A stretch of DNA of 44,439 bases from Candidatus Dadabacteria bacterium CSP1-2 (GTDB lineage: Bacteria > Desulfobacterota_D > UBA1144 > Nemesobacterales > CSP1-2): NCBI GenBank assembly GCA_001443445.1, contig LDXN01000019.1, forward strand, positions 1 to 44,439. The letters are read 5' to 3'. Both the position numbers and the translations under genes were made by a program. Shown one piece after another: positions 309 through 5,869 of the stretch. Numbering within the stretch: position 1 is the stretch's first letter; every line of letters starts with the position of its first letter. Below the pieces are notes generated by a model, which saw only the letters and a program-made list of their open reading frames with translations, had not been told where the DNA came from and ran no database searches.

Positions 309-1541
309 ATGGAGGTGATAACTTTGAGGCGACAGGAATTAACAAGATATCAGGTGATAAATGGAACAATAGAGAGGAAGATTTCAAATACTGAAGCGGC
401 CATATTGCTTGGGATATCAAAGAGGCAGGTAATAAGGGTAAAGAACAAGATAAGGAGAGTCGATTTTAATGGGGTAGTACATGGCAATAGGGGAAGGAGA
501 CCGAAGTTAGGTATTTCAAATGAGACAAAAGAGATGATCCTCAGTCTTTATCAGAACAGATATTATGGATTTAATGTCACACATTTTGGGGAATTCCTAA
601 AGGAAGTGCACGGGATTCAGGTATCCAGAGAGACTTTAAGGAAGCTTCTACTCATATCAGGGCTTAGGACAAAGAGCAAATCACCACCAAGACACAGAAC
701 AAGGAGGGCTAGGATGCCCAGGAGTGGCCTTTTAGTCCAGATGGATTCCTCCGAGCACAAGTGGTTAGAAGAAAGCACTATCTGGCTTATAGCCACTATA
801 GATGATGCAACGGGAGAGGTTCCATATGCCCTTTTTGTAGATAGTGATTCCACGGAGAACAATATGAGGGTTATAAAGAGACTAATAGAGAAAAGGGGGA
901 TGCCTGTAGCCTTATACACTGATGGGGCGAGTCATTTTATAACACAAAGGCACTATTCTTACAGGGTAAATCTTAGGTATGACGATACTCCTACGCAGAT
1001 TCAAAGGGCATTAAATGAACTTGGTGTAAGGCTTATCATTGCAGGAAGCCCTCAGGCCAAGGGAAGAGTAGAGAGACTTTTTGAAACCTTCCAGGACAGG
1101 CTCCTTAAGGAATTAAAACTCTATAAAATCTCTTCTATAGAGAAGGCTAACAGGTATCTACACAATAAGTTTCTACCAAGATTTAATAATAAATTCTCTA
1201 ACGCTCCCAAAGACCCGGAGACCGCTTGGAGAGTTTTACCAAAGGAATTAAACCTTGAGTCTGTATTCTCAATAAAAGAGCAAAGAACTGTTATGGCTGA
1301 TAACACTATCTCCTTTAGGAATCGAATATTTCAGATACTCCCTGATAAGTATAGAATCTCCTTTGCTAAGGCTAAAGTTGTAGTGGAGAAGAGATTAGAT
1401 GGGTCTATACACATAAGATATAAGGACCAATACCTGAATTTTAAGGAAATTAGTTCTGATGAAATTAAAAAGATTAAAACTAATACTCTGCCTCTTGAGA
1501 AGCTACTTACAGGTGACATTTTCACTTTGCATCAGGGGTGA
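309..1541 (+). CDS. IS transposase, helix-turn-helix plus rve (DDE) core
   Basis: This 410-residue protein opens with an HTH region (about 18-60; ISNTEAAILLGISKRQVIRVK), followed by a second HTH-like stretch and then an rve integrase core. The catalytic triad is visible as D146 (VQMDSSEH), D205 (ALYTDGASHF) and E255 (GSPQAKGRVERLFE). The ATG at 309 has AAGGAGGT 10 bases upstream. The reading frame is intact, so the element may be active. The last codons (DIFTLHQG) are written by the inner terminal repeat and the TGA stop lies at the edge of the outer one, so the protein C-terminus and the right end of the element share DNA. Confidence 0.88.
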   Translation: MEVITLRRQELTRYQVINGTIERKISNTEAAILLGISKRQVIRVKNKIRRVDFNGVVHGNRGRRPKLGISNETKEMILSLYQNRYYGFNVTHFGEFLKEVHGIQVSRETLRKLLLISGLRTKSKSPPRHRTRRARMPRSGLLVQMDSSEHKWLEESTIWLIATIDDATGEVPYALFVDSDSTENNMRVIKRLIEKRGMPVALYTDGASHFITQRHYSYRVNLRYDDTPTQIQRALNELGVRLIIAGSPQAKGRVERLFETFQDRLLKELKLYKISSIEKANRYLHNKFLPRFNNKFSNAPKDPETAWRVLPKELNLESVFSIKEQRTVMADNTISFRNRIFQILPDKYRISFAKAKVVVEKRLDGSIHIRYKDQYLNFKEISSDEIKKIKTNTLPLEKLLTGDIFTLHQG

Positions 1542-4073: not shown

Positions 4074-4610
4074 CTACTTAGTTAAAATATCTTCCTTAAG
4101 AACACCGATAAATGGCAGATTCCGATAATGCTGGTTATAGTCCATCCCATAACCTACTACAAATTCATCTGGAATTTCAAATCCGCGGTAGTCAATTGGT
4201 ATATCCACAATCCTACGAACCTTCTTGTCAAGAAGAGTACACACACGAACGTCAGTTGGTTTCCTTTCCTTTAATATTCTTAATATATAATTAAGAGTCA
4301 GTCCAGTATCAATTATATCCTCAATTAGAATTACGTGCTTATTCTCTATATTTTCATCTAGATCTTTTAAGATTCTAACTATACCTGTGTGGGTTTGTCC
4401 TGAGTAACTTGAAATAGACAAGAAATCAAGGGTAACAGGAATAGAAATCTCTCTCATCAAATCACATAGAAAAATAATCGCCCCTCGCAAGACGGTAACA
4501 ATTACAGGTTTCTTTCCATAATAGTCACGAGATATCTCTTCTCCGAGCTCCTTAATCCGCTTTCTTATATCTTCTTCTGTGATTAAAACCTTAGCTATGT
4601 CTTCATTCAC
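4074..4610 (-). CDS. hpt: hypoxanthine (guanine) phosphoribosyltransferase
   Basis: This 178-residue type I phosphoribosyltransferase converts hypoxanthine or guanine plus PRPP to IMP or GMP. The PRPP-binding signature VILIEDIIDTG is at 93-103, with the acidic pair before DTG. The LRGAIIFLCDL loop (41-51) and the flexible-loop SSYSGQTHTG (67-76) are in place. The C-terminal region around residue 150 (FVVGYGMDYNQHYRNLPFIGVL) is typical of bacterial HPRT. An AGAGGA lies about 9 bases before the ATG. It faces the purine permease convergently, which fits a salvage role. A long 344-base gap that holds a structured RNA on the opposite strand separates it from the next minus-strand gene upstream. 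Confidence 0.95.
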   Translation of the reverse strand: MNEDIAKVLITEEDIRKRIKELGEEISRDYYGKKPVIVTVLRGAIIFLCDLMREISIPVTLDFLSISSYSGQTHTGIVRILKDLDENIENKHVILIEDIIDTGLTLNYILRILKERKPTDVRVCTLLDKKVRRIVDIPIDYRGFEIPDEFVVGYGMDYNQHYRNLPFIGVLKEDILTK

Positions 4611-4758
4611 TTTAGTTCCTCTTATTTCGAGAATAGTCTAACTTTTAATTGCTGGATGTTACTATTTCATTTCTAACTGAGAGTTTATCATCGTTAATTA
4701 AGATATTATCATTCATAACTGCCTATAAACAAATAATTTTTATTTTAATAAAATATAC

Positions 4759-4787
4759 TTGACATTCATTACAAAATGTAGTATAAA
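4759..4787 (+). promoter_or_regulatory. strong sigma70 promoter with UP-like A/T tract for the structured RNA
   Basis: Consensus TTGACA (4759-4764), an exact 17-base spacer, then TATAAA (4782-4787). The bases just upstream (4731-4757) are an A/T tract resembling an UP element. The predicted start, about 4794, falls a few bases before the first strand of the outer stem of the RNA. No plus-strand gene follows, so the product is the RNA itself. Confidence 0.7.
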
Positions 4788-4793
4788 TTACAT

Positions 4794-4961
4794 TAAGCGG
4801 TTCCAAGAGGCTCAGGGTAATTTGAAAACCAAAGCCTAAAGTACCAAGAGGAGACCGAAAGGTCAAATTGAAGCTTCCCTCGACGAGGGAGAGGCTAGTT
4901 AAAAGGAAAGCCAGGCAAGGTTTTCAAAAGTAAAAGGTCACTTGGAGCCGTCTCCTATTTT
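4794..4961 (+). ncRNA. unassigned structured RNA of about 165 bases
   Basis: The outer stem pairs 4798-4807 (CGGTTCCAAG) with 4941-4950 (CTTGGAGCCG): ten pairs with one G-U. After a 13 by 12 base internal loop, a perfect ten-pair stem joins 4821-4830 (TTTGAAAACC) to 4919-4928. Inside are a possible five-pair stem (4833-4837 with 4892-4896), a GNRA hairpin GACC-GAAA-GGTC (4853-4864) and TCCCTC-GAC-GAGGGA (4876-4890). GGAG-CCGT-CTCC followed by TATTTTCT (4944-4963) could end transcription, in competition with the outer stem. It overlaps the last bases of the convergent gene at 4955. I do not see SRP, tmRNA or RNase P signatures. A divergent 6S RNA is the best known alternative, but the branched centre does not fit it well. 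Confidence 0.6.
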
Positions 4962-5869
4962 CTACCGAACCTCTGTAGTAATTTCTTATAATCCCTTCCA
5001 TAAAATATTTTTATATTGACCTTTGGATAAAGCTCTCTTAGCCTCCTGAGCTTACGATTTTTCTTTGTCACAAGTTTTTGTTTAAGAGTGGTAAGCTCTA
5101 TGTAAGTGTCTAGATCAGGGAGGTAAAAATCTGGTGTGAATTCTTCTATTACCTTGCCGTTCTTATCCCATTCAATAGGAAAACTCCTAGGTTCATACTC
5201 CCACTTGATTCGGTAAAATTCCAAAACACGAACAAAATCCTTTTCACTAGGGTGAGCAAATGAAGGAATTCCTAATTTTTTAACTTTCTCTGAGTTCAAT
5301 CTAATATATAATCCTAGCTCATTCAAGCTCGCTTTTAATTTTTCAATTCTTCTCCAAGTCACTCCAGCCTTCGCCATTATCCCCTTTGTTTCAACTGCTT
5401 TTAATATCATATCCACCGCAAAATCCGCATCCATATTCTCTATTTTAATCTGAAGGTCATAAAAACTACTCACTATTTTTTTCTTTGCATAAAGTTTCTT
5501 GATAAAGCTTACGTAACTTCTTTTTCTGTTTTTAATTAATTTAGTTTCCTTTTTTCCGTCATAAGAATGATGGATTTTTACATGAAGGGCGCCAGGAAGA
5601 TTGCGAAATAGAATTTCGCCTCCAAGGTTAAGTACTACTACGTTATTTTCGAGAGCATGTTTGATTATTAGCTTTTTAATAAGTCTTGGCGGGATTTTGT
5701 CTTGAAAGAGGAGCTCAGTGTCCTTTTCTACGTCTATCTCGTGAGGAATACCTAACTTGCTAATAATGAGGGTGCTATCTACTAAAATGAATCCAAGCCT
5801 CTGAGAAACCTTTCTAGCAACCTCTTGACCTAGACCATCACCTAATTCTGATATAGTGATAATAGCCAT
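4955..5869 (-). CDS. cytidylate-kinase-like domain fused to a PD-(D/E)XK-like domain
   Basis: This 304-residue protein appears to have two parts. Residues 1-160 resemble the cytidylate-kinase-like family: ITISELGDGLGQEVARKVSQRLGF at the start, VVLNLGGEILFRNLPGALHVKI (78-99) and YDLQIKIENMDADFAVDMI (137-155). The P-loop is degenerate, with no GK[ST], so kinase activity is doubtful. Residues 205-300 hold FTPDFYLPDLDTYIELTTLKQK, with D247, E258 and K263 spaced like a PD-(D/E)XK nuclease core. A basic KKNRKLRRLRELYP helix and a final FYGRDY strand follow. The gene lies upstream of hpt on the same strand, with the RNA gene between. The function is unknown; a nucleotide-responsive nuclease or regulator is only inference. 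Confidence 0.6.
   Translation of the reverse strand: MAIITISELGDGLGQEVARKVSQRLGFILVDSTLIISKLGIPHEIDVEKDTELLFQDKIPPRLIKKLIIKHALENNVVVLNLGGEILFRNLPGALHVKIHHSYDGKKETKLIKNRKRSYVSFIKKLYAKKKIVSSFYDLQIKIENMDADFAVDMILKAVETKGIMAKAGVTWRRIEKLKASLNELGLYIRLNSEKVKKLGIPSFAHPSEKDFVRVLEFYRIKWEYEPRSFPIEWDKNGKVIEEFTPDFYLPDLDTYIELTTLKQKLVTKKNRKLRRLRELYPKVNIKIFYGRDYKKLLQRFGRK

Follow-up and report, generated by a model that had tools for sequence, protein, structure and literature searches.

The window, the whole stretch of 44,439 nucleotides from Candidatus Dadabacteria bacterium CSP1-2 that was analysed, contains a consensus promoter on the forward strand between two genes of the reverse strand, a divergent gene of the hpt type and a convergent gene for a 304-aa protein (Table 1). 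A sequence-only reading of this DNA had described the promoter as a textbook one that points at no protein gene, and this description was found to be accurate: TTGACA and TATAAA are separated by a 17-nt spacer and preceded by an A/T-rich tract, and the gene that lies downstream (4955-5869) is encoded on the opposite strand. The automatic promoter scan accepts a -10 box only if it ends in T, and it was for that reason alone that the site was passed over. From the position of the promoter and the onset of conservation, we infer that the RNA starts near A4795. The U-rich end that had been read behind it is weak in the window copy (UCUCCUAUUUU), whereas relatives show it clearly (e.g. CGCUUUUUUUUAUC). 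A conserved open reading frame was looked for in the ten copies of the RNA described below and none was found; the longest forward frame in the window copy encodes 21 aa and is not conserved.

Table 1. Features of the small RNA locus, in window positions.
Feature	Position	Strand	Basis or remark
Divergent phosphoribosyltransferase gene (hpt-type), outside the RNA gene	4074..4610	-	Pfam PF00156
A/T-rich tract 5' of the promoter	4730..4758	+	Sequence
-35 hexamer TTGACA	4759..4764	+	Sequence; 5-6/6 matches in 10/10 copies
-10 hexamer TATAAA, 7 nt before A4795	4782..4787	+	5-6/6 matches in 8 copies
Small RNA, type A copy	4795..4960	+	Models R1 and R2 match 4795-4955; 3' end approximate
P1 5' arm, pairs with 4941-4951	4797..4807	+	109/110 cells paired in ten copies; 11-bp end-closing helix
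P2 5' arm GGCU, pairs with 4936-4939 (GGUC)	4809..4812	+	39/40 cells paired
Internal loop, purine-rich, 5' side; opposite 4929-4935	4813..4820	+	Alignment
P3 5' arm, pairs with 4919-4928	4821..4830	+	67/70 cells paired, seven inner pairs
AGUACC, strand X of the predicted apical module; second half degenerate in the window copy	4840..4845	+	Full AGUA-NN-GAA in relatives
Hairpin GACC-GAAA-GGUC	4853..4864	+	Fold; in 8 copies with loop changes, missing from two short copies
Hairpin UCCCUC-GAC-GAGGGA	4876..4890	+	Fold, alignment; type A only
GAGGGAGA, degenerate strand Y of the predicted apical module (AGUAGGGAAA in relatives)	4885..4892	+	Alignment
P3 3' arm	4919..4928	+	Pairing with 4821-4830
P2 3' arm GGUC	4936..4939	+	Pairing with 4809-4812
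P1 3' arm	4941..4951	+	Same pairing count as 5' arm
Convergent gene, 304 aa, kinase-like N-terminus and PD-(D/E)XK-like C-terminus, outside the RNA gene	4955..5869	-	Pfam, fold search, homologs

As folded and aligned, the RNA is a rod whose two ends pair to close it, and in which P1, P2, an internal loop (about 8 by 8 nt), P3 and an apical module with hairpins follow one another. Its minimum free energy is -58.5 kcal/mol, with a folding z-score of -3.9 for 4790-4970 and of -5.2 for the RNA alone, and scores between -3.0 and -6.5 are obtained across all ten copies. The helices had been judged unlikely to arise by chance, and none of 200 shuffles of 4790-4970 folded equally well. As for their size, the description of two ten-pair helices is about right, the outer arms consisting of 11 and 4 bp with one mismatch between them and the inner arms of 10 bp. 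Taken as a whole, the earlier observation is confirmed, since the promoter, the start, both long helices (with the pairs 4798/4950 and 4821/4928) and the two nested hairpins, one of them with a GAAA loop, all lie where they had been placed.

Homologs were found in related genomes, with ten copies in 7 of the 58 genomes of the class (Dadabacteria). With blastn, a 94% copy was found in the same genus, a second copy (78%) in the window's own genome, and further copies in other genera and in another family. A covariance model trained on seven copies (R1) yielded three more when it was run on the full set of 58 genomes of the class, and a second model (R2), which was run on 291 genomes and from whose training the window copy, G001A and G009A were excluded, recovered these three with E = 5e-21, 4.8e-19 and 5.1e-11, respectively, the last being the copy from another family. 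At E up to 0.01, R2 found nothing in the 291 genomes beyond the known copies, and no copy was found in the 233 genomes outside the class. Nor was any match found by blastn against phage and plasmid records or by a pattern search of viral contigs. A looser model search of 39 genomes returned, besides the known copies, only weak matches, of which those with E up to 1 were inspected; the weak matches at G007:C63, G020:C43, G020:C47, G048:C14, G002:C57, G044:C6 and G029:C85 all proved to be parts of long open reading frames and are attributed to chance. The RNA is thus limited to six of the seven genomes of one family (f1) and one genome of another (f4). Five copies measure 160-164 nt, and the others 115, 115, 139, 141 and 142 nt. 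The -10 box is weaker (3/6 matches) in two copies, G002A and own2B, the latter being the second copy in the window's own genome.

The paired regions of these copies are well conserved, with standard pairs in 215 of 220 cells (the 22 pairs of P1, P2 and P3 in ten copies). Measured against the commonest pair, 31 changed cells still pair and 5 are broken, so that pairing in the helices of 4798/4950 and 4821/4928, for which a test for compensatory changes had been suggested, is mostly preserved. Two-sided changes are seen at three P1 pairs (U-A/C-G, U-A/C-G and G-C/A-U), at one P2 pair (G-C to A-U in the type B copy of G006) and at one apical pair (C-G to U-A). When partners are slid by one base, pairing falls from 92-95% to 50-56%. 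In 47/500 and 32/500 trials, column shuffles gave at least as many two-sided pairs as were observed, and these covariation tests are modest because the sequences are few. P2 contains G-U pairs in 9/10 copies, which would read C-A on the other strand, and this argues that the plus strand is the functional one.

Much of the conserved sequence outside P1-P3 falls in the apical module, which fits the expectation for a binding surface. AGUA occurs at two apex positions in seven copies, and in four copies (G002A, G006A, G004A and G005A) AGUA-NN-GAA is present on both strands with complementary NN, an arrangement that was found in 0 of 50,000 shuffles. The layout is antiparallel, each AGUA lying opposite the GAA of the other strand, and the two motifs have two Watson-Crick pairs in common, one of which changes from C-G to U-A in two short copies. 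We take AGUA facing GAA to be the hallmark of a bulged-G motif (loop-E, sarcin-ricin), and the apex is predicted to consist of two such modules placed back to back. In the short copies, strand X, a GAG-GAGA-CUC hairpin and strand Y form one uninterrupted rod. One half of the module, the same half each time, has degenerated on both strands in the window copy, G001A and G009A, where a stronger CCCUC/GAGGG hairpin is in competition with the module, and in own2B one of the two Watson-Crick pairs is G-G; these irregularities weigh against the reading preferred below.

The copies fall into two lineages. Type A is flanked by the convergent gene of the 304-aa type and the divergent hpt gene in all seven genomes, and type B is found in three of them (own genome C22, G001 C223 and G006 C39), where in both genera it precedes an M23 peptidase/rlmB pair. 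On the 3' side of type B, roughly the last 20 codons of the 304-aa gene survive as a decayed remnant, which in G006 reads KSLERFGIK after a frame-disturbed stretch resembling KIFYRRDYE. Judged from these remnants, a segment with the RNA and the gene end has been duplicated, the RNA and its promoter being kept and the gene end lost. As type B kept the RNA while the gene end decayed, the RNA itself is what is retained, and its position away from an intact gene argues that it acts in trans, with no need for the neighbour in cis. A further broken C-terminal remnant of the 304-aa gene is present in G006 (C96, L126, ~2288-2395), where no convincing RNA was found beside the fragment; the segment has seemingly been duplicated repeatedly. 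A gene for an rve-type transposase is located at 309-1541 (+) of the window, and a near-identical C-terminal fragment of it near the type B locus on C22 (L023 11440-11688, -).

The N-terminus of the 304-aa protein is of the adenylate kinase type, with PF13189 just under the cut-off and fold matches to 3fdi and 3hdt; its P-loop is degenerate. The C-terminus is PD-(D/E)XK-like, with weak matches to endonuclease I and an invariant E-L-T-T where E-x-K is usual. In Actinomycetota and relatives (L076, L078, L084 and L087), the PD-(D/E)XK-like domain stands alone (~130 aa) with a MerR-like gene as its neighbour, and three of these loci have hpt nearby. In Bacillota, Atribacteria, Coriobacteriia and further groups, the domain, whose conservation is unusually high, is located next to hpt.

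With homologs, pair-preserving changes, conserved promoters and the independent retention of a duplicate, the suggestion of a new small RNA is upheld, and the locus almost certainly represents a new family of structured small RNA; the high abundance that had been proposed for it is a conjecture from the strength of its promoter. Judged from the ten copies, the family has its own gene with a sigma-70-type promoter and has been duplicated into two lineages that both persist. No family of Rfam 15 was matched above its gathering score, in agreement with the earlier reading, which had assigned none; at gathering thresholds the whole window was searched, and at E up to 10 the RNA region gave a single chance-level match, upstream and on the opposite strand. 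Other known kinds of RNA were considered and rejected. CsrA-titrating RNAs carry several conserved GGA motifs in hairpin loops, but GGA positions vary among the copies here (e.g. AGAAGACC in G002A). Hfq was found in 0/58 genomes of the class, with five control genomes positive, and Hfq-dependent base pairing is therefore unlikely. A riboswitch or leader was rejected because no same-strand gene follows on the 3' side in the window and the neighbours of types A and B differ.

That last observation also bears on the view that there is no RNA gene at all and that the locus is a bidirectional terminator, structured DNA or the leader of a downstream gene. P1 followed by a U-rich tract would suit a terminator, and partial self-complementarity is seen in both directions, the other strand scoring 21.8 bits; the RNA strand, however, scores 150 bits against these 22 and the promoter is conserved in ten copies, so that this view is highly improbable. 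A small RNA that pairs with mRNAs in trans and independently of Hfq, its conserved unpaired letters serving as seeds, would agree with the typical size, the promoter of its own, the U-rich end and conserved unpaired stretches such as CGAAAGAGGAGA. Against it, Hfq is undetected in the class, the RNA is highly structured with few free bases, and the bulged-G module, including the compensatory C-G/U-A pair, accounts for those apical letters that are most conserved; seed pairing is thus rather unlikely. The RNA could also serve the neighbouring genes, as a partner of, or a convergent antisense regulator for, the kinase-like/PD-(D/E)XK protein or the kinase-hpt pair. Within the class, protein and RNA occur in exactly the same seven genomes and G003, of the same family, has neither; the RNA ends within about a dozen nucleotides of the convergent gene's stop codon, and the C-terminal domain of the protein is strongly conserved between phyla (up to 73% over 99 aa in a Coriobacteriia protein). 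Yet no RNA match lies near the homologs from Bacillota, Atribacteria, Actinomycetota and Chloroflexota, and hpt follows the gene directly in those loci of Bacillota, Atribacteria and Coriobacteriia that were examined, so the link is most simply one of synteny shared in a single clade; type B copies, moreover, persist apart from any intact gene copy. A partnership with the neighbour is accordingly doubtful, and distinctly so.

Equally doubtful is a highly divergent 6S- or Ms1-like RNA that would mimic an open promoter and bind RNA polymerase. 6S RNA is marked by a large central bubble between closing and apical stems, by binding to sigma-70 RNA polymerase and by serving as the template for product RNA. 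The strong promoter, the duplicated gene, the long end-closing helix and the internal loop between two stems would all be in keeping with such a function, and Ms1 shows that RNAs that bind the polymerase can evade 6S models (PMC9130861). None of the 58 genomes of the class contains an Rfam-detectable 6S, which has either been lost there or become too divergent, and this leaves room for 6S-like action. The proposal of a very divergent 6S nevertheless fared poorly. The Rfam model of 6S (RF00013) gave no match in this region of the window at any threshold used (gathering threshold or E up to 10) and none in the own genome, and 51/58 genomes of the class lack the RNA, although a 6S would be expected throughout. 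Half of the copies (five of ten, 115-142 nt) fall below the ~160 nt of one of the shortest 6S RNAs, the length limit used here being about 160-200 nt (PMC9130861). The internal loop between P2 and P3, in addition, may be too small for the central bubble of a 6S, and the apical module holds at least as many of the conserved unpaired letters as this loop does.

The explanation that we prefer, and whose chances we put at about even, is a structured RNA that acts in trans by binding a protein, is transcribed from its own gene and belongs to a new family restricted to this lineage. On this preferred reading, transcription would start near 4795 from the sigma-70-type promoter and would be ended by the closing helix and the U-rich tract. 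The architecture suggests that the RNA works through protein binding, with the tandem bulged-G (loop-E-type) module of the apex and the purine-rich internal loop as the putative docking surfaces, and that it may titrate or scaffold its partner. A bolder version, in which a tandem bulged-G module with two-fold symmetry forms the core of a new class of small protein-binding RNA that possibly acts as a global regulator and replaces 6S in a branch of the Dadabacteria, is speculative and rather unlikely. In either form, a structured RNA family is added to a phylum for which no small-RNA literature was found, and it offers a compact test case for the use of small RNAs in a lineage with neither a detectable Hfq nor a detectable 6S. 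The length classes of 115, 140 and 160 nt indicate that hairpins can be lost but that P1, P3 and most of the apical module cannot, and they are therefore a direct guide to dispensable and indispensable elements in experiments.

Among known systems, the bacterial small SRP RNA (RF00169) is likewise small and of housekeeping size, but RF00169 has no match in the window and the SRP RNA of this genome sits elsewhere (G000:C31:27396-27493). Bacterial Y RNA is similarly a small RNA closed by its ends with an internal loop near the closing stem; it was rejected as an identity, the Ro (TROVE) protein being found in 0/58 genomes here. The 6S RNA resembles the RNA in the size of the long type A copies, the strong promoter, the paired ends, the internal loop between stems and the sometimes two copies per genome, whereas the lack of an Rfam match, the shortness of half of the copies, the small internal loop, the narrow distribution and the elaborate apical module set the present family apart. 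Ms1 of the Actinobacteria offers the parallel of a lineage-restricted structured RNA where 6S is undetected; it measures ~230-300 nt, has extra hairpins and neighbours a HAD-IB hydrolase gene (PMC9130861), whereas the RNA here measures 115-164 nt and is found beside hpt, the kinase-like gene and others, with no HAD-IB hydrolase. With the bulged-G or loop-E modules of rRNA and other RNAs, the apex has in common an AGUA opposite a GAA beside Watson-Crick pairs; it differs in that two such modules, predicted from sequence alone, would be placed back to back in one small RNA.
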